NCBI GenBank assembly: GCA_021234155.1
Contig: JAJEKV010000011.1
Coordinates: 3,905,069 to 3,969,068, forward strand
DNA length: 64,000 nucleotides
Origin: Isoetes taiwanensis
Taxonomy: Eukaryota > Streptophyta > Lycopodiopsida > Isoetales > Isoetaceae
Direction of reading: 5' to 3'
This document shows positions 4,322 to 49,974 of this stretch, in pieces. Position 1 is the stretch's first letter, and every line of letters begins with the position of its first letter. The notes under the pieces are model-generated. The model did not search any database and was not told where the DNA came from. It was given only the letters and a program-made list of their open reading frames with translations. A program made the translations under genes and the position numbers.

Positions 4322-6710
4322 TCTTCTACCAGACAAGCAATCCCAGTTGTGTTCCTTACGTTATCGCTTGAACAAACCTTATAGATTTTGTAAGCAGGTG
4401 TTATAGAGTAGTAGATAGTGCAAAACCAAATAAAACTTATAAAATTGCTAAGATCCATTGTTTAAGCCTTCACAGGAGCTAGTTACAAGAAAAATAGAGT
4501 TAGGGTAAAGACAAGTCAAGTTTCTGTTTGAAAGCCTAAGATAAAAGTGTCTATGCATTGTTAGAAATTAAAGGTCAAGTGTCAACCGAATAAGAATCTC
4601 AGCATGCATTTGAGAAAAACACATTAGGTTATCATCGAACAAGCACATTAGGTTATCACTGCATGTATGACTGTATGATGATTCTTTGAATGAAAATCCG
4701 ATCCTAGGCATTACAATTGTGTTCAAATTGATTTCCACATTCTAAATAAGGTAAATTAAAAAGGTAAAAGCGATATTTGAAGATAATTTGTTTGTTTGCA
4801 TATCATAACTCAGGTTGCATCATACTCTGTTCTATTGATCAAAATCAACATAAAAATTAGATTAAATTGCCTTTAATATCAATCTGTCTGAAAATTTGAC
4901 AAGTTCTAGCACTGCATGTAGGATAATACTTATAAATAGAGAGTTAACCAAACAGGTAGAAAGCATAAAGAGTTTGGAAAAACATCGAAAAACAATTTGC
5001 AACAGCTTGTTTTCTATACTTGGCAAACCATGGCATTTTTAGGCAAAATATTCCACCTTGGAGATTGTAGCTATAATTTTTATCAAACAACCAATTCTCC
5101 CTTGCTTGTAGACTATTTGAAGGTGTTAAAAGATCTTCAGAGCTCAGAAAAGATTAGCATAAATCGATTTGCAAAATTTTGCCTGCTGTTTTTTCCCATA
5201 ACAGCCTGTTTGCAAAGAATTTATTTTTGAGGTCTTTCTTGCACCTATTTTTGCAAAAAAAGATTCATATTCTTTTGCAAAAAATTGCTCACTGCCAGGG
5301 ATATTGACTTAGTTTTGACTTGGTCAGGAGTGCATATTTGAATGATCTTTGCAAAGCTATTGGCATCTAACTTTAGGCCCTAGATTCTTTGAGACCTTAA
5401 GCAGCTTTTTGAATTGGAATCATGATAAAATCTCATCCTGCTTGCAAATGGCATCATTTTTGCTGAGGCATCCTTTTTGTTGATTTGGGAAAGCATTATT
5501 GATTCTGTGTTTAGACTTTCTTTCTGGAATCATTAGGGATTTTTTGAGATCATAAAAGGGCCTTCTAAGAACTGCTGACTAAGCCATATGAACTACCAAT
5601 AAGAAAACAGAACTGGTAATCCAGTCAGCAAAACAGTTATAACTAACTCACTGGATCACATTTTCAAGCATAAGTGTTGATAGAAAAGTCCAAATGAGCT
5701 TTTGTTTAGTGCAATAGATAGATCTCATTGAGATCTTTCCAACCTTGGGTGGTTTACATATCTTTTAGTCCCGTAGGATAGTAAAAAATGGTGAAAACTA
5801 TATTTTTTGGAGTTTTGACAATCATAAGTCGTTAAAATATGTGCAAAGCACCCAAAGTTGGAAAGATCTCAACGAGATCTATCTATTGCACTAAACGAGA
5901 GATCATTTGGACTTTTCTATCAATAGTTATGCTAGAAAATGTGATCCAGTGAGTTAGTTATAACAGTTTTGCTGACTGGACCCGTCAGGCTCTTATTTCT
6001 GCCTAAAGCAACCTGGAGGTTCTAATCCATTGAGGTTGAAGGTTTTCCAGGACACACCTTCAACACGAACACTAGTGTCTTTCCATGATACTAATACTAG
6101 CTCCAAGAGCTGGACCCACCTACTTTCGGTAACAACACAGAGGTTCTAGTAATAGTTATGTCTGATTGAATCATCTAAATCTTGTCAAGAACTACGGTCG
6201 AAGGCATTGCATATGTGCATCCAAAGCATCCAACTTTACTCACAGAAGTGTTTTCTAGCTGGACTAGAGAGGCATAATAACATAGCATCGCTGGTAAAGC
6301 AGTAGAGGGTAGGTAGTTGGATTAAGGAATCAATCATGAAAATGCTTTTCTGGATAGGATATGATAATAAAGAAGTAGTAGAAAAGGTGATCTTGCTTGT
6401 GATTAGCAAATTCCTTTTGCACTTGGAGGTCATCTCGTGATGCCAGGACCGTTGCCCTTGATCATAATATGGGATATTGTAGATGCGTGAGAGGTTGACA
6501 TGTCAACCCCAAGTACTGGAGTTCATGGGACGGAATGAAGATACCACTTACCCAAGTCCTTAACACCATGCTCCATCCTATGTTCTTGTAGTTGTTTATA
6601 TGTAGTGATGATATACTCTGATCCATATTTAATTGGAAAAAAGTATTCAATAGTGCCGTTATCATGTTAGTCTGCACTTCAAAATTAGACAGTATTTCTT
6701 TATAGGTAGC
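4322..6710. repeat. Left arm of large inverted repeat, inner part
   Basis: The sequence is the reverse complement, with moderate divergence, of 17773-19700. Matching landmarks are the open frames 4997-5230 (+) and 19066-18863 (-), and 6710-6462 (-) and 17780-18021 (+). None shows codon conservation beyond that of the repeat itself. A CAATAGATAGATCTC palindrome-like pair (about 5712 and 5876) forms a further local inverted repeat, about 5640-5760 against 5850-5970, around the ACTCACTGGATCAC motif. I see no gene. Confidence 0.8.
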
Positions 6711-8339: not shown

Positions 8340-9033
8340 TGTTAAAGATAAACTTGTATGCTAAGCCTGAACTAGACTATGCTTTTGCAATTGAATTTTG
8401 AATTATATGAGCCCAGCAGAACCATCAGTATAATTTATTATCCAATGGTGCAACAATTTTCATCATTCACGATTTATTATCTCAACACTATTGAGGACTG
8501 TAGTCACGAACTTTAGACTGTTTAAGTATTTTGATGGCCCAAGCAATGACGGCAATCTCAATTCGTCAACCTTCTACGAATTTCTCTGTGTTCTGTAATG
8601 CCGAGTTTCTGACATACAAATTTATTGATACATCCATTTTCGATGGTAGGATCTCATTTGTCCACATAGCGTTATTAACAATGCATTTTATTAACCATTG
8701 ACATTTATCACAATGGTCACCTAGGTTCAATGGTTGTATAATTTCTGGTCACCTGGATTCACTGGTCTGTATAATTTCCTTACCACGTGTAACTGTCAAT
8801 CAAACATGTCTACATCTTCTAAATCTGTTCAAAGATTGGAACCCCATGATTAACCTTGAATCACTGTTCTACATATTCTCAGACCATTTTCTTCCTATGC
8901 TCAGACCATGTCCAACTGTTTATCTGTACTTATACTAATCTGCATATATGGTTTAACCATCTTAACAGAAACATTAAAGTGTCTTCAACATTCAACAACC
9001 TCATTATAAATATGTAACATGATATTTCCTTCA
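8340..9033 (-). repeat. 5' LTR of deleted copia element, copy 1
   Basis: The LTR is 694 bp with TG/CA ends. It contains a minus-strand TATA-like ATATTTATAAT at about 9004-9014, suitable for the retroelement promoter. It also contains two tandem units of about 33 bp (GGTCACCTAGG...TATAATTTC) near 8725-8790. Confidence 0.8.
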
Positions 9034-9189
9034 ACATGAGCAGGTCATTATTGTAGATTGAAACAATTGTTGTCCTTAGGTCATCGTGTTTGATTCTAGC
9101 ATATTGTATGGATACTTCATTTACATCATTCCTGGATTATACGTTTGCTAACAAGTATAATAATGTTGTATGTTTCAAACCTCGATGTT

Positions 9190-9545
9190 CGAAATTGACA
9201 AACATAAACGAGAACGAGGTGCACCTCGGACTACCACAGTCATCAGATTCGTTGTTCCTACGACCCAGATCGTATGTTGGGGTCTCTGGGCACCTCTCGT
9301 TTCGCTTATAGTCACTTATGATTGGAGGTGCCTTTGATTTTGAAATATGAAATACAATTTCGCCTAAGGTTTTGAGGGAATATCGAACCTCTATATCAAA
9401 TACAATTTCACCTAAGGTTTTGAGGGAATATCGAACCTCTATACGACTTTGCCTAAGATTTTAGAATATGAAATACGGGGGCTCGAACCTCTATGAAAAT
9501 AACTCAATGTCTTAATAAGACTATTTTAACCAATACATCCAGTAA
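9190..9545 (-). repeat. tRNA-like (SINE-like) repeat S1
   Basis: On the minus strand the head at about 9545-9475 has an A-box-like TTGGTTAAAATAG and a B-box-like GAGGTTCGAGCCCC spaced as in a tRNA. A short stem with a seven-base loop lies between them. A body of about 280 bp follows, with an internal 48-bp tandem unit (about 9349-9396 and 9397-9444) that repeats GAGGTTCGATATTCCC. Related copies lie at about 9710-9960 and 17290-17590. Confidence 0.5.
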
Positions 9546-9709
9546 GCTAATGTGATTCTTTTTTATCTTGAATCTATGTTTTTTTTATAACAACCCATTC
9601 AATTGTTTTAGGAATATATGGTCTATGGTTTCAAGAATTGTTTTTCTACATCCATATCAGATCACCCTGGAACTCCCCGTTATTTTCCTACATGTTCTAA
9701 GCGAGATGC

Positions 9710-9960
9710 AGCATGGAATACCACAGTCGTCGGATTCGGCGATCCTATGACTCAGATCGTATGTTGGGGCCTTCAAGCACCTCTCGTTTCGCTTATAGTC
9801 ATTTATGATTGGACATGAAATACGAAATATGATTTCGCCTAAGGTTTTGAGGGAATATCGAACCTCTATACGGTTTTGCCTAAGATTTTAAAATATGAAA
9901 ATACGGGGGCTCGAACCTCTATCAAAATAACTCAATGTCTTAATAAGACTACTTAGCACG
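9710..9960 (-). repeat. tRNA-like repeat S2
   Basis: A shorter relative of S1 shares the CGTATGTTGGGGCC block and the two GAGGTTCGA boxes. It lies just outside the 2.9-kb duplication unit. It lacks the 48-bp tandem unit. Confidence 0.5.
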
Positions 9961-10039
9961 ATTTCTTTAATTGCGGCCCAAAAGATTGACATGCTTTCAA
10001 CTTACGCCCAGCAACGCTGGCACAATTACTAGTCTTATC

Positions 10040-10518
10040 CTAGCCAAATGCTGCTGCAGGGCCCAAAAGGGGTATAAATAGCAGCCTAATTACAAGCAGG
10101 GAACGCTTTATAGATTGATTTTTAAAGTGCTGAAACAGCTCGTCCCTGTGATACAGATCGAGCAAATTCTCCGATTCAAACCTTGGAACATCCTTTTGGA
10201 CAACGTTGAATGTTCGGAAATCTTCCTGCCACAATTGGGCGAATTCTAGATTCAAGTCGTCTGGACTGCCAAGATCCCTATTCAACAGAAACAAATTTAA
10301 TTCAGCAAAATTTTGCACATGTTTTGAACTGTAAGAATGAATACAGCAGAACAAAAGGGGAAAGAAATTTTCAAGTTGAGATTTTGGGCTTACTTTTTGC
10401 AATCGATCCAGTCCCATTCGCAGTAGTTTTGCTTTGTTTTGGAGCTTCCAGGATCTGCACAAATTTGAGAGATGGTGCAGGCCAATATCGATAATAGAAG
10501 AAGACGTTGCATATCCAT
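10040..10518 (-). CDS. Two-exon gene for small predicted secreted protein, copy A
   Basis: I do not recognise the family. Exon 1 is 10518-10394, the intron has GTAAGC and TTGAATAG ends, and exon 2 is 10277-10040. The spliced frame is 363 bases, giving 120 residues and a stop. The start ATG heads a hydrophobic stretch (RLLLLSILACTISQICA) that looks like a signal peptide cleaved near residue 21. A short polar segment with two Cys (YCEWDWIDC) and a likely helical acidic domain (FAQLWQEDFRTF, LLDLYHRDELFQHF) follow. The end is hydrophobic (LLFIPLLGPAAAFG) and could be a membrane or GPI-type tail. A TATAAAC lies about 40 bp upstream of the ATG. Copy B at 48848-49362 keeps the same splice sites and phase with an open frame. 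That two diverged copies stay open argues for a real gene, but transcription is not shown. Confidence 0.55.
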
Positions 10519-10547
10519 TGCTTGGGTTGCTAAATGGATTGTGTTTA

Positions 10548-10556
10548 TATTTGAAT
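10548..10556 (-). promoter_or_regulatory. Putative TATA box of secreted-protein gene A
   Basis: On the minus strand AAATATAAACA lies roughly 35-40 bp upstream of the ATG at 10518 and is conserved at the same spacing in copy B. The upstream conserved block continues to about 10710. It is placed by sequence only. Confidence 0.4.
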
Positions 10557-10712
10557 TTGGGCCTTTGGGTTGACTGGTCCTTGAGCTTCTTCCTAGTCCT
10601 TACCCCTCCTCAAGACGTGTGTAAAATGTTGAACATTGTAGAGACGCGGTCTATCTCTTTATTTGGCCACAAATATGAAATAGAATGATTATCAATTGCT
10701 AGATTTATGACA

Positions 10713-11720
10713 TAATGTGGCCCCGATCAAAAAGGATATTTTTGTTACATATGGTTTTCTAAGGTTAGGCCTGGTATTCGTATTCAAATACGTATTTTGG
10801 TGATGGTGGCATATGGGGTGCGTTTTGGAAACCTAAGCGGATTGTGGCAGGAGGGGCCTGTGTTTTCTTCTGAGATCTGGATTGAGATCTGAATTGGGTC
10901 GGGCGTGGAGGCAGCTGCAGGTGTCCACGACTGAGGAGGATGCTAATTCGGGCCACATTATTATCGGCTTAGGGTGATTTCCCATGGGCAGAAAACCTCC
11001 AGGCTTCGTGAAGGTCAGGTCTGTTTTTCTGATGTTCCCATGAGCTGAGAACCGGAGTGGCTGAGGTTAAGAACCTCATTTAGAAAATAATCCTGAGGAA
11101 TACTTTTGGACCTGGGCCTGACCTCATCCAGGTCCGGCCGTCCATGGCCAAGCTGGGTGGAGGCATTGCTGGGTTTCTGGCAACTGGAGTTCGAACTGGG
11201 TCTTAGAAGTATAAGGCCATAACACTGTGTTCTGTCTTGCTTTTGTCTGCTATTTGGGCGTGGCCGAAGGAAGAATAAGTGAGCGGATTTTTGCAAGCAA
11301 GCAAGATCCGGTGGACATTATTTGTTTTTTTCTTTTGTTCTCTTGCAGAGGCGGAGTTAGGTCAAGCCCGTTGGATCTAACGGAAGCCCCTTGAATCAAA
11401 ACGCCATGTCTGAATCTGAAAACGCCATGTCTGAATCAAAACGCCCCTTGAATCTGAAAACCTTGGCCACGCCCTTCCCTTGGCTTGCTTGTTGCTTGTT
11501 CCAACGATTCTAAGTACTTTTTCCTTCAGGATTTTCTTTCGGATTCTTGCATTCTTTTGTTCCTTGAAAACCTTGAATATCTTGTTCCTTGAAGACCTTC
11601 TGAAAACCTTGGCCAAGCAACAACATTGGAACTGACAAAATGATGATTAAATGAGATTCGAAGTTTCAAGCACAGAAGTTTCAAGCACAGAAGCGTCGGC
11701 AGGATTAAAGTAATAACCTT
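10713..11720. other. Non-coding stretch, no gene recognised
   Basis: No recognisable protein. Around 11385-11470 short degenerate tandem units (GAATCAAAACGCC, AAACGCCATGTCTGAATC) occur, and CTTGGCCAAGC/CTTGGCCACGC motifs recur. The open frames at 10765-11296 are short and have no family features. Confidence 0.5.
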
Positions 11721-15071: not shown

Positions 15072-17104
15072 TGTTAAAGATAAACATGTATGCTAAGCAT
15101 GAACTAGACTATGCTTTTGCAATTGAATTTTGAATTATACGAGCCTAGCAGAACCATCAGTATAATTTATTATCCAATGGTGCAATAATTTTCATCATTC
15201 ACAGTTTATTATCTCAACACTATTGAGGACTGTAGTCACGAACTTTAGACTGTTTAAGTATTTCGATAGCCCAAGCAATGACGACAATCTCAATCCGGCA
15301 ACCTTTTACGAATTTCTCTGTGTCCTGTAGTGCCGTATTCTAATTCCTTTTTCTCTGATAATCCCCGAGTTGCCGACATACAAATTTCCTGATATATCCA
15401 TCTTCGATGGTAGGATCTCATTTGCCCACATAGCATTATCAATAATGCATTTTATTAACCATTGACATTTATGACAATGGTCACCTAGGTTCAATGGTCT
15501 GTATAATTTCTGGTCACTTGGATTCATTGGTCTGTATAATTTCAAGAGAGCGCCTGCTTGCAAAGTGACTTTTGCCTCCACAATTAAAGCACTCATTATC
15601 TTTAAGTTTTAGACAATCTATTTTCAAATGCCTTTGCATATTGCAACAAAAACAATTTCTATCTTCAGACTGATATTTGGAGTTTCCCCCTCTGAATTTA
15701 CCTTTGCTAGCAAACAGAATTTCCATGTTTCTTGCATCTTCATCTTCAAATGCTTTCTTTTGTTCAAATTCTGTTCTAATCATTTCTTCTGCTGTTTCCC
15801 GTGTCCTTGCTACATTCCTAATTGATGCAGCTAGTTACTCATTGCTGCCAACTGCCCTGGCAATGTGTAAAACTTTCTGCTGCTCTGTAAGAAGCACTCC
15901 AGCACCCCCGAGATCGGCAACAACATTATCAAACTTAGAGAAAAAAACTATTAAATCATCATGTTCTCTGACCCTGAGCTTCCTTAGTTCCTTATCCAAA
16001 ACATCAATTTGAGAGGAGGTTTTTTCCTCATAATGTTTAAGTAAATATTTCCAATCTCCTTTGGTGTCTTACCTCTGATCTTTAGAAGGATGGAAGATCT
16101 GACTTTGCTTGCAAGAATCGCATATGCTTCTCTGATCTTGGCTTTATCCTCACTCCCCAAGCTCACACTTACATCACTGGTTGCAGTGGCATCGACTCCT
16201 CCCCCTGTAGTGGAGCCTTCTCCTGTAGCTGCATTGCTCTCCTTTGTACCTGCAGCAGTACTTACATATGTAGCACCACTATCTTCTCCACTTACCAATT
16301 CCCAAAGGTTTCTCATTCTCCAGTACATTTTTAATTTGTTCCTTCCAAATTTGAAACCCTGGGCCTCCTTGATACTCCTTTACACTACTCATGAGTGAAG
16401 CTCCCAATCTACTTGCCATGATGAGATTGCTAACTCAGCTCTAATACCAATGTTAAAGATAAACTTGTATGCTAAGCATGAACTAGACTATGCTTTTGCA
16501 ATGAATTTTGAATCATACGAGCCTAGCAGAACCATCAGTATAATTTATTATCCAATGGTGCAATAAATTTCATCATTCACGGTTTATTATCTCAACACTA
16601 TTGAGGACTGTAGTCACGAACTTTAGACTGTTAAGTATTTCGATAGCCCAAGCAATGACGACAATCTCAATCCGGCAACCTTTTACGAATTTCTCTGTGT
16701 TTTGTAATGCCGTATTTGTTCCTTTTTTTTCTGATAATCACCGAGTTGCTGACATACAAATTTTCTGATACATCCATCTTCGATGGTAGGATCTCATTTG
16801 TCCACATAGCATTATCAATAATGCATTTTATTAACCATTGACATATTTCCTTACCACGTGTAACTATCAATCAAACATGTCTACATGTTCTAAATCTGTT
16901 CAAAGATTAAAAGCCCATGATTTACCTTGAATCACTGTTCTGCATATTCTCAGGCCATTTTCTTCCTATGCTCAGACCATGTCCAACTGTTTATCTGTAC
17001 TTATACTAATCTGCATGCATGGTTTAACCATCTTAACAGAAACGTTAAAGTGTCTTCAACATTCAACAACCTCATTATAAATATGCAACATGATATTTCC
17101 TTCA
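15072..17104 (-). mobile_element. Internally deleted gag-only copia element, copy 2
   Basis: The layout is as in copy 1: LTR 17104-16451, mutated primer site (TGGTATTAGAGC), gag with at least two frameshifts (start 16419), and partial 3' LTR 15543-15072. The flanks are ACATG (15067-15071) and CCATG (17105-17109), a 5-bp target duplication with one change. The LTR lacks about 60 bp near 16840 that copy 1 has. The loss runs between short repeats and removed the tandem 33-bp units. Confidence 0.78.
15570..16419 (-). pseudogene. gag of deleted copia element, copy 2
   Basis: It is homologous to 7450-8308. The start codon at 16419 is conserved but the frame breaks near 16320, again near 16000, and again near 15800. 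CFCCNMQRHLKIDC and CFNCGGKSHFASR remain from the zinc knuckles. The second has lost both the last Cys and one internal residue seen in copy 1. Confidence 0.8.
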
Positions 17105-39632: not shown

Positions 39633-39875
39633 ATGAACAACATTTTTATGCTCAATAATATCACATTATTACGCTCCCATAATAAGCGTGAATCATTTGC
39701 CAGATACATCAAAATGAACAACATTTTTATGCTCAATAATATCACATTATTACGCTCCCATAATAAGCGTGAATCATTTGCCAGATACATCAAAATGAAC
39801 AACATTTTTATGCTCAATAATATCACATTATTACGCTCCCATAATAAGCGTGAATCATTTGCCAGATACATCAAA
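39633..39875 (+). repeat. Three identical 81-bp tandem repeats
   Basis: Units at 39633-39713, 39714-39794 and 39795-39875 are identical base for base. Because 81 is a multiple of three, the plus frame (39615-39974, 119 codons) and the opposite minus frame both stay open through them. The repeated plus-strand peptide starts MNNIFMLNNITLL. Each unit contains the small inverted pair ACGCT/AGCGT. I recognise no protein family, and the open frames may simply follow from the unit length. Confidence 0.9.
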
Positions 39876-39975
39876 ATGAATAGAAGGATTTCAAAAGTGA
39901 TCACAAGGAGAGGCATAGGTTCAGGTTTTGGGCCTCATTGTTTTAAGTCTATACTAAAGGCATATTTTCATTAGT

Positions 39976-41515: not shown

Positions 41516-42330
41516 TTCCAGTCTGTAAAATAGTTGATATTTTTGCTTTTACATATTACCAGGATGTGACCTACTTGCCTGCATTTGAAATGGGACTTGT
41601 TGTATAATAATGATTTGTTCTGAAATCTATCATTTATCTTGAAGTCCTATATACCAAAAGAAATCCATTGAACCTTTGACAAACTATTGATTAGACCATC
41701 TCGGAAAACATGCACTAGCTAATATTTACAAGTATTCTTCATTATCCTTAGAATATGACCAAAGACCAAAGGCAGAACCATAGGAAAAAAGTGAAAAAAG
41801 CTCCTTGGCTAGTTCTTGGAACCCAAAAAGAAACACCAAAAACAATAGACTCAAGAACATTTCTCCTAGTGCACATATTTCAACCTAGTGTATACCCCTT
41901 GAGCAATCCAAAAATGTGGAATGGAATCTATAGAGGCACAGAAAGAAGTTAGCAAATTTTGTTCTTTAATCCGGTTTCACTGTTATCTCGTGGGAAAATA
42001 AAAACGGAAAATGAAATCAATGATCCCAAATAGAATACATTTTCGTAAACTGATAAAAACATATGAATACATACACTCGTAGATCATATTCATAAAGGCA
42101 AGCATAGAATTTTCTTAGATGCTACTTTCAAATGTTAAAAAGTTTTGGTCGGCGAATACTTAATACGTTGAAATTGTCAACAAGTTGATGGCGAAGCAGC
42201 TGTGTAGAAAATGATCAGCTGTGTGGGCAAATTAACTGCTTCAAATTCGAATGTAGTGCCGTAAAGTTTTAGTTTTCCGAATCGGCCTATTTTTGGGTTG
42301 CCCCTAGGGGGGCAAACCCTTGTTTATGTG
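41516..42330. other. Intergenic stretch, nothing recognised
   Basis: No motif-bearing frame and no recognisable repeat. Confidence 0.5.
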
Positions 42331-43172: not shown

Positions 43173-43937
43173 GGCCTGCAACAATAAATTTCTTAGATGG
43201 GTCAAACTAAGCTCCGAAATAAGTGATGCAGCCGAAGCTACTTGCAAAAGTGAAGTTGGCTCGGGGGTTTGTTACAATGATTTTGCTTATCCTATGTCGT
43301 GCTGGGTATTTTATTCCATTGCCTGGGTTTGATCAGAATCTGATGCCCAAGGAATACCTGTCTTCAGTTCTGGAAAAATAGGTATAGCATAGGAATTTAG
43401 CGAGCATATCGAGGAAGGCAAAATTGGCTCAATGCATGATGAAAGCTCAGGTGGATGTTATAATGGATAGTGAGGTTTCTGATCATGAGATAGTACCCAA
43501 CAGAGGGGTAGAGTATACTGAAGAGTTACTAGCCAATGGAGAGTTGTCGTATAACAAGGCATACGAGCCCATTGTTTGCTTTGAACACCAGCTTCCAGTC
43601 ATGAGGTGCAGTTGAATGTGCAGAATCAGGAAATCTATGCTTGCATTTGTTGTGGTTATCCCCAAAAAAAGGAAAGGCTTTTGTTGATTTACCAAATGAT
43701 TGTTACACATTCTCTAGAATCAAAGACATTACTTCACCTTCGAGGAAGGAATATAGATGGTTCTTCTAGTTACGTTAAACCTCGTCAGATTATTCCTTGT
43801 ACCGCGTCGCCCCTCTTGGATCTAATGTTGATGCAATGCACGAGGATCCAAGTGGCTCAAGTGTTGGCGTTGTTGGTTAAGCCTCCAAGCGGTCTTGAGC
43901 AAGTTGTTACGCCTTCGTGTAGTGGCCTCCAAGATCT

Positions 43938-44399
43938 TTGTTGGCTAAGCGGCTCAAGGACACGTATTTTTCTGTAGATGTTGTCCTCGTTATAGGAGTT
44001 AGTGATAGCTTGTGCAAGCTTAAGGATCTTTGTGCAAAGTTGAATGCCAATGGCTTAGCAGAGGTGAAAGGCAAGGGAAAAGGGAAAGCAAGGACAATTC
44101 CTTTATCTCCTTCATGTGATGAGCATATAATTAGTGTGATATCTGATATACTTACTGAGCTGGGAAATGGTGATGGAGTATCTACATTTGAATTCGTTGG
44201 AAGTGGAGTTGTGGATGCACTTTTGAAGTTTCTCTCTTGTGGTGGTGTATCTAAAGGCAATGCATCAGAAAATGCTACGTTCAGGTTACGGCACCAAGTC
44301 CCGAGAAGGTTCAAATGCTTTTTGGAGCTGTCTCTTCCGCATCCAGCAGGGGCGCAATTTGTAGTCGCAGATATAGGTACTAGTTCTAAGTCACTCTAG
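43938..44399 (+). pseudogene. UPL3/UPL4-type HECT E3 ligase fragment
   Basis: The 153-residue frame has RLKDTYFS, LKDLCAKLNANGLAEVKGKGKGKA and GDGVSTFEFVGSGVVDALLKFLSCG. These match the mid-region of plant UPL3/UPL4 (KAKTUS) ubiquitin ligases. The armadillo-like N-terminus and the catalytic HECT domain are absent. The frame starts and stops without matching flanks, so it is a captured or leftover exon. Confidence 0.8.
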
Positions 44400-45580
44400 A
44401 ATCACAGTATTCTTGACTGTTGCTCTGAGCTGCTCGTGCTTCTACCCAAACATGCCATAGTTTGTATTTTCTTACTGTGATTCTCTGTCTTACGGTGGAA
44501 ATGTTGGTTCATATTGTTATGGCGACTGTGAGTGAATATTTCAATTTTGATACATAAGTTACGATCAAATCCTAGTACAAGTCTTCTAGTGGTGGGCCAA
44601 GTCCCTTTGGTTTTCACATATCTAATTGTTTTTTGCAAATCATTGTTTCACTCATCTCACGAAATATATGGCTTCAAGCGGTGTGGATCTTGGTTTCATT
44701 TTATCCTCGCCAAATCACAATCATGTTTTACATTTTAATGGCTTTACCTTGTTTTTCATGCATCTATTTAGTCCAGTCTATGATCTTGCATTTTGAGGAT
44801 CTTGTATTCCTTGTTTTGGCTTTTTATCGTGGCAACTCTACAGGCATGTCAAAGAAAAATGTCTTGCATTTCTAAAGTACTCTTTTCTTCATTTATTTTA
44901 GCTTCCCTACTGATTTCCTACTTGAGTCAATTATGTTTCATTCCATCTGTCCAACTATAAAATGTATGAGTTCATTGTACTTCCATGTCCTATCTTTGCT
45001 TTTTTTGTATATATCCATTTACATTTGAGAAGACTTACACCTTAGTTTTTTCAAGGTGTATCGTCTTCATCGACTTTAAGGTGGCGGTAGCAACTAGTAG
45101 CAGGTCTTATGTACTCCATGAAGCGTGTAGAGACTACTGCTTAAACCATGGCAGTTAGTGGTGCTTTGCAAATGTTATTAACAGTCCTCCAAGTGCTTGG
45201 CATGCTTTGCATGCTTTGCTTATGGTCTTTATCAACATTTTTGGTCCAGATATCCACAGCATGGCAGTATGGCAAGGGATTCTCTTTGTTCCCCATGTAA
45301 TAAGTTGACCATCCTGTACAAAAGGATATCTTCTTTTCTGTGTTTTATGGAAGTTTTGTTCACGTGGAAGCATGAGCTGTCACTTTATTAACTGCTATAC
45401 ATTAAACTTAGTAGAGGTCCTGCTCTGGCATCAGAAAACTTTTGTGCACTAGAATACTCCTTCATTTCCTTTATTGGCCATCTTTGCAACCTGCCATCTC
45501 AAGATGTCATATGCTAGAGTAACATGGTTTCAGGATATGTTTTTGAGTGTTGTGAATGCCTCCTTTGCCCTTAAGTTCTG
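44400..45580. other. Stretch between UPL and PPR fragments
   Basis: No recognisable protein or repeat. T-rich on the plus strand. Confidence 0.45.
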
Positions 45581-48250: not shown

Positions 48251-48847
48251 TCGAGTATGAAGTGGATGAAAACAACTTGACTCTCTATAACATCGGTTTT
48301 ATTCCACTTCGGTGCGGTATTTTCAGCACAAGTATTTATTCTTCAAACTGGGACGGATGTGGAGGGCAAAATTGTATGAATCTCAAAATTGATAAACTTG
48401 ATTGATACAAAAAATTACGGAATCACTAGTTGTGGAATATCATATTGCCAAGCTTTAAAAAAGCAAAAAATTCAACATGTAAAACAAAAGCTTTAGCGAA
48501 ATAACAATCTAGACTCTCTCGAATGCAATGATCTGTTGTGCGTGGACAGATCCACGATCGTATGCTTTGTCACAATGATCAAGGATCTGTCCTCCCTCAA
48601 TTCTATAAATTGAACCCTCCCTCAGTTCTATGAATTGACCTGCACAGCTTCGTAAACAAAACTCATGGACTGAGAAAATGACACTGTGTGTTCAAACAAA
48701 GACCCGACAATGACGAAACAGAAACTATGAAAATACACTTTCGCGCCCCCAGAGGGCAACCCTCCGTGCGTAGCACCTTGTTTGTTTTGTATAGTAGATT
48801 TTGCAGCTACTAAGCATAGAGAAAGACCCCTTTTTGTGAAGAAAATC

Positions 48848-49362
48848 TTACGCCAAAATGCCTGCTGCAGCGCCCAAAAGGGGTATAAATAGCAGCCTAA
48901 TTTCAAGCAGCTTAATTTCAAGCAGCAGCCCAATTTCACGCAGGGAATGCTTTCTAGATTGTTTTTTGAAGTGCTGAAACAGCTCGTCTCTGTGATACAG
49001 ACCGAGCAATTCCTCCGATTCAGACCTTGGAACATCCTTTTGGACAGCGTTGAATGTTCGGAAATCTTCCTGCCACAATTGGGCGAATTCTAGATTCAAC
49101 CCATCTGGACTGCCGAGACCCCTATTCAACAGAAACAAATTTAATTCATCAAAATTTTGCACAGGTTTTGAAATGTAAGAATGAATAGAGCAGAACAAAA
49201 GGGGAAAGAAATTTTCAAGCTGAGATTTTGGGCTTACTTTTTGCAAACGATCCAGTCCCATTCGCAGAAGTTTTGCTTTGTTTTGGAGCTTCCAAGATCT
49301 GCACAAATTTGAGAGATGGTGCAGGCCAATATCGAGAATAGAAGAAGACGTTGGATATCCAT
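48848..49362 (-). CDS. Two-exon gene for small predicted secreted protein, copy B
   Basis: Paralogue of 10040-10518. Exon 1 is 49362-49238 (125 bases, as in copy A) and exon 2 is 49121-48848. The spliced frame is 399 bases, giving 132 residues. The N-terminal signal-like segment (RLLLFSILACTISQICA), the NFCEWDWIVC segment and the acidic helical domain are conserved. The tail is 12 residues longer through a small repeat (EIGLLLEIKLLEIRLLFIP) and ends LLGAAAGILA. Splice sites and phase are kept although many codon changes alter residues, so selection may be relaxed or diversifying. A TATAAAC lies about 40 bp upstream of the ATG. The family is unknown to me. Confidence 0.55.
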
Positions 49363-49555
49363 TGCCTGGGTTGCTAAATGGATTGTGTTTATATTTGAAT
49401 TTGGGCCTTGGGTTGCCTGGTCCTTAAGCTTCTTCCTAGTCCTTACCCCTCTTCAAGACATGTGTAGAATGTTGAACATTGTAGAGACGCGGTCTATCTC
49501 TTTATTTGGCCACAAATATCAAATAGAATGATTATCAATTGCTAGATTTATGACA
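48848..49555. repeat. Duplicated segment R3, copy 2
   Basis: Direct match of 10040-10712. It continues without interruption into R5. Confidence 0.85.
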
Positions 49556-49845
49556 TAATACAAAGGGGGAATGGATTTCCTCGGACTTGCACTCTAGGCT
49601 GCCCCCACTTATTGTTCATTTGTTAATTGTCATCTTGTTCTTCACCAATCACACCAAAATCATGACGCCATGGACATGTTTATTTTTTGATGATTGAAAC
49701 ACTTATTATGACCAACGTATTGAACAATTCGAACACCACAGATGGGTTGCCCTCTAATACAAGGAATGTTCAAGTAATAACTCACAAGGAATGTTCAAGT
49801 AATAACTCAAATCTTGACGAATTTGTGTTTTGTTTTGTTTTTAGC
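49553..49845. repeat. Repeat R5, copy 3
   Basis: Match of 14628-14890. A short internal duplication (AAGGAATGTTCAAGTAATAACTCA twice, shown here in part) is present only in this copy. A TTTTGTTTTTAGCACACCAG tandem follows. Confidence 0.8.
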
Positions 49846-49974
49846 ACACCAGTTGTTTTGTTTTTAGCACACCAGCCCTACCGGGCCTACAGCCTTTCCT
49901 TGTCATTTCCATGTCATGAGATCTCTAGTTTCGCAAATCTAAGGCAAGGAAATTAGAAAATCGGCAAAAAATAG

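Follow-up and report, generated by a model that had tools for sequence, protein, structure and literature searches.

Plant secreted peptide precursors of the CLE, CEP, PSK and RALF kinds are small proteins that start with a signal peptide and continue with a variable body. The product of the gene analysed here resembles them in its small size, its signal-peptide-like start and its variable body, while, compared with them, it has only two or three cysteines after the supposed cleavage site. A second group to be considered are the plant orphan genes, which are characterised in a review (PMC9305701) as short, fast-evolving and without recognisable domains.

Two copies of the gene are present in the window, which is the whole stretch of 64,000 nucleotides that was analysed (Isoetes taiwanensis, contig JAJEKV010000011.1, positions 3,905,069 to 3,969,068). 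The locus is read here as belonging to a young family of two-exon orphan genes, which would encode a small protein of the secretory pathway and which at present would evolve nearly neutrally. Judged from the sequence, this reading is assigned a probability of about 0.5.

Gene model in the two window copies

The first-pass annotation had described two copies with an unbroken spliced frame, an identical length of exon 1 and the same intron phase, and all of this was confirmed. Both genes are located on the minus strand with ATG start codons at 10518 and 49362, and the spliced frames are open over 120 amino acids in copy 1 (10518-10040; referred to as copy B) and 132 amino acids in copy 2 (49362-48848; copy C). 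Exon 1 comprises 125 nt and the intron 116 nt in both copies. In copy 1, exon 1 (10394-10518) encodes the signal-peptide-like N-terminus and the CEWDWI.C segment, the intron (10278-10393) extends from GTAAGC to GAATAG, and exon 2 including the stop codon (10040-10277) encodes a part that is mostly helical in a low-confidence model and has a hydrophobic C-terminus. The N-terminus of the spliced product, with its putative signal peptide, is hydrophobic on the Kyte-Doolittle scale. The A+T content of copy B is 69% in the intron and 56-58% in the exons, which was counted in favour of the gene reading. In copy 2, exon 1 (49238-49362) and the intron (49122-49237) are followed by an exon 2 (48848-49121, stop included) with an in-frame gain of 33 nt near its end, and the last few codons differ. 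Over a core of 300 nt the two copies are 92% identical. The shared exon lengths, intron phase and TATAAAC carry little weight, because recent duplicates would have them in common anyway.

The TATAAA noted upstream was found in both window copies, starting 31 nt upstream of the ATG (10544-10549, minus strand, in copy 1). Its conservation among recent duplicates is of little information. Plant TATA boxes are placed 23-59 bp (PMC10005294) or 50-20 bp (PMC1832190) before the transcription start; a leader of at most about 8-11 nt would follow, and the element is too near the ATG for a normal 5' leader. A bacterial promoter scan of this DNA was uninformative here.

The gene model is not unique, as neither the acceptor nor splicing itself provides the sole open reading. 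Without splicing, the exon 2 frame is open over 189 and 191 codons from stop to stop in the two window copies, and the unspliced product of 124-137 amino acids, which begins with MGLDRLQ, is intact in all five copies of the genome with an open frame (see below). In addition, a second in-frame acceptor, TTACAG, is located 51 nt upstream of GAATAG, and exon 2 of copy 1 would then begin at 10328. With this acceptor, four of the open copies yield a form of 137 amino acids. In copy C, the fifth, it is changed to TTACAT, so that of the two acceptors only GAATAG remains. It is quite unlikely that the unspliced frame or the 137-amino-acid form is the actual product of this DNA. The position of the TATA box would fit a transcript start near or past the first ATG, and both forms are widely intact; however, the intron ending at the upstream acceptor would have only 62-65 nt, and this acceptor was lost in copy C.

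Whether such a model arises by chance was estimated by scanning for an ATG, a hydrophobic N-terminus, a GTAAG donor, a T-rich YAG acceptor and a length of at least 120 amino acids. The real window contained five models at three donors, two of which are the donors of copies 1 and 2, while the third is located at 15887 on the plus strand. Of the first-order Markov windows only 2 of 60 contained any such model, with criteria that were tailored in so far as they were written once the finding was known. With this caveat the gene models of the two copies are real and non-random, and the first-pass reading of a two-exon, signal-peptide-like gene was supported as a model that is unlikely to arise by chance under these criteria. 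The third model (15725-16086, plus strand) is probably due to chance. A frame on the opposite strand, gag-like by eye, overlaps it.

A chance open frame in non-coding DNA with few stops, which was duplicated afterwards, is highly improbable as an explanation. Other frames in the neighbourhood are open as well, for example one of 153 amino acids at 48628-49089 on the minus strand, and neither a family nor constraint is visible for the gene. On the other hand, models of this type were rare in the Markov windows, the differences between the exon 2 tail and the stray piece L021 are partly silent, and the indels are biased (both described below).

Similarity to known families and structures

The first-pass annotation could not place the product in a family, and profile searches with Pfam (five products) and NCBIfam (two products) gave the same outcome. 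No Pfam model reached its cut-off, the best E value being 0.035, and matches to myotoxin, ATC_hydrolase, DUF7238 and FANC_SAP were disregarded as they remained under their cut-offs. NCBIfam yielded no model for the two products. In a PDB sequence search with the copy 2 product only, the best match (E value 0.014) was a partial one to pheromone-binding proteins. Exon 2 alone, modelled with five rows, was mostly helical at a mean pLDDT of 62, and Foldseek comparison of this model with the PDB gave 18 matches at E values up to 10 and none at 0.001 or better. Nothing was detected by Rfam at gathering score within the window. A literature search for EWDWI retrieved only unrelated papers from movement science and psychology.

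Seven copies in the genome

The first-pass annotation had counted two copies; seven were found when the genome was searched at the DNA and protein levels. The DNA search of the 1.66-Gb genome gave 11 matches, eight of them within the seven copies and three elsewhere, and 14 of the 16 matches of the protein search fell within the same seven copies. Besides copies B and C, the spliced frame is open in copy A (C919:3876192, plus strand) and copy a (C1034:121975, plus strand). In copy c (C1034:173837, minus strand) exon 1 and exon 2 each have an open frame, and the phase at which they would be joined is unchanged; the context of its acceptor is TTCAATAG, and its 137-amino-acid form is open. Copy b (C1034:143279, plus strand) is frameshifted. 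Copy d (C1034:188739, minus strand) has retained exon 1, with an altered CEWDWI segment, and most of the intron, which is followed by unrelated sequence, and it lacks exon 2. The spliced frame is therefore open in five of the seven copies (A, B, C, a and c), whereas a frame broken in most relatives had been named as the mark of a repeat-borne chance frame. Outside the seven copies no exon 1 was found in the genome protein search at E values up to 10, with all 17 of 17 candidates scored.

Downstream of the gene, two stretches of copy b, about 350 and 550 bases long, are identical to copy a, and upstream the two are nearly identical. The 120 differing columns among 2399 (C1034:142843-145125, L006) are clustered: small substitutions and indels lie densely within the gene itself and within a single further patch. 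The breaks in copy b are probably the result of a poor assembly consensus, so copy b was not counted as a pseudogene.

Flanking regions and mode of duplication

The block around copy 1 (8681-10971, minus strand) matches C1034:121537-123819 (92%) and C1034:142843-145125 (89%). The flank of copy 2 (49554-49784, plus strand) recurs near other copies in the two chromosome blocks described below, and its matches were confined to the blocks among the 40 of 691 candidates scored; the last approximately 50 bases of the longer query 49554-49900 are a dispersed repeat. All three matches of the flank 41587-42294 fall within the two blocks. The flank 6066-6710 gave ten matches, three of which lie outside the blocks and are short and weak (C1036, C1074 and C930). 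Dispersed repeats are present a few kb further out from the gene copies. Since the near flanks are essentially confined to the blocks, local duplication is indicated and not a dispersed repeat. A transposon-borne origin of the gene was rejected for the same reason, and the repeat-borne chance frame raised by the first-pass annotation is disfavoured.

Marker pieces suggested that C919 from 3.84 to 3.96 Mb and C1034 from 0.20 to 0.067 Mb are roughly collinear in inverted order. C1034:198500-200000 matches C919:3839107-3840599 with 87% identity, and also, in part and with 83-85%, C1034 at 32.9 Mb and C1035. C1034:185255-186374 matches C919 at 3872-3873 kb with 93-94%, copy a matches copy B with 98%, and C1034:66658-67413 matches the window at 57.8-58.6 kb with 92%, its first part overlapping a dispersed repeat. 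The order inside the blocks is partly scrambled: the piece at window positions 41587-42294 adjoins copies c and A, yet it is 6.5 kb away from copy C. Among the matches of the DNA search no counterpart proper to copy C was found at the expected place on C1034. From these alignments the two blocks are taken to be diverged versions of one locus, either haplotypes or homoeologues.

Other features of the window were recorded as well. Nested inverted and direct repeats surround a rearranged block within positions 1-22000, where the inverted arms are 88-99% complementary, and copia-like frames (labelled by eye) are present at both ends of this block. A piece of 1.5 kb at 43900-45400 has 11 more full-length matches in the genome at 91-97%; the frame 43923-44399 within it resembles a fragment of a UPL3-type ubiquitin ligase by eye, and the piece is perhaps an element that carries gene fragments. 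Three perfect tandem copies of 81 nt are located at 39633-39880, with a frame open on both strands.

Pieces of exon 2 elsewhere in the genome

Sequences related to the last third of exon 2 occur at three dispersed loci on C1035, C1072 and C1028. Over 16 codons the piece L021 differs from copy C in seven codons, of which two change the amino acid in the exon 2 frame; in the other two frames 4 of 8 and 8 of 8 codon differences do so. The corresponding count for the piece L022 against copy C is 3 of 8, and for copies A and B it is 4 of 8 against either piece. This is a hint, and no more, that the exon 2 tail already encoded protein prior to the spread of the pieces. Past the exon 2 tail the frame of L021 reaches a stop, and the alignment continues out of frame. 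A search for upstream exons near the three pieces yielded nothing beyond weak matches to exon 1 that resemble chance hits. All three adjoin a dispersed repeat of about 300 nt (L021:1000-1327, L022:1540-1866 and L023:997-1291), which was overlapped by 41 of the 44 rows listed, query included, with 40 of 85 candidates scored. The stray pieces were for this reason rejected as the parent gene and are taken to be captured fragments or relics.

Selection on the protein

Changes were counted among the five open copies; copy b was left out for its noisy-looking consensus and copy d for its lack of exon 2. There were 13 synonymous, 27 non-synonymous and no stop changes, compared with a neutral expectation of 10.3, 28.0 and 1.7, respectively (20,000 simulations with the observed transition share). 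The probability of no stop change under neutrality was 0.19. The rearranged end of copy C contributed four of the 40 changes (sites 468-475), which vary with the alignment; when these are omitted, 11 synonymous and 25 non-synonymous changes remain. The comparison of dN/dS proposed in the first-pass annotation revealed no purifying selection on the protein in these five of the seven copies, with an omega of 0.77 (interval 0.38-1.62). Over the ten pairs, omega ranged from 0.18 (A and c) to 2.52 (c and C). Strong purifying selection on the copies is unlikely, while the lower end of the interval, 0.38, allows moderate constraint.

In exon 1, 10 of 125 sites were variable, compared with 10 of 116 in the intron and 28 of 238 in exon 2; conservation is therefore no higher in the exons than in the intron. 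The substitutions in exon 2, tested in four pairs, did not single out any frame and favour neither the unspliced nor the spliced reading. The scripted indel count, from which an 18-nt gap at the alignment edge was excluded, gave two indels within 360 coding bases, each with a length divisible by three, and five within 150 bases upstream (p = 0.026, uncorrected). This is a weak hint of coding.

These results bear on the possibility that the copies are non-functional relics of a once-coding gene, which ride on the segmental duplication, drift neutrally and are still open only because they are young. Such a history is somewhat unlikely. It agrees with the substitution counts, which are indistinguishable from neutral, with exons that are not better conserved than the intron, with the loss of exon 2 from copy d and of one of the two acceptors from copy C, and with the absence of stops, which is compatible with chance. 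The sparse indels in the coding part do not agree with it, and the omega interval also leaves room for constraint.

The C-terminal half of exon 2 contained 14 non-synonymous and 5 synonymous changes, compared with 4 and 6 in the first 32 codons (p = 0.11, post hoc). A more specific proposal is a clade-specific family of secreted peptides that expanded in the rearranged block with its two diverged versions, that uses alternative 3' splice sites to form isoforms of 120 and 137 amino acids, and whose C-terminal half changes fast, like that of a recognition or defence peptide. This proposal is considered unlikely.

Discussion

According to the favoured reading of a young orphan gene family, exon 1 would provide a signal peptide, with a likely cleavage site near ICA/DPG as judged by eye, and the short CEWDWI.C segment, and exon 2 would provide a helical body that ends in a hydrophobic stretch. 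Local segmental duplication would have multiplied the locus before the two blocks split, and probably again afterwards. The transcript would be spliced and its product secreted, possibly to act as an apoplastic or membrane-linked peptide, and at least one copy would still be expressed. Most copies evolve with little visible constraint, and redundancy or early decay is therefore likely.

If the gene is expressed, its five open and nearly neutral copies make this compact orphan gene useful for studying how function is acquired or lost by young secreted proteins following local duplication. If it is not expressed, the locus is a clean case of duplicates that appear gene-like to an annotator and yet are without constraint.

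None of the peptide motifs of the CLE, CEP, PSK and RALF precursors was recognised by eye in the products, and no Pfam model reached its cut-off. The gene differs from the plant orphan genes, as these are portrayed in PMC9305701, in having an intron and a signal-peptide-like start. It resembles them in its short length, few exons, fast protein change and absence of a recognised domain. Local duplication is named there (PMC9305701) as one route for plant orphan genes, and it is also indicated for the locus described here.
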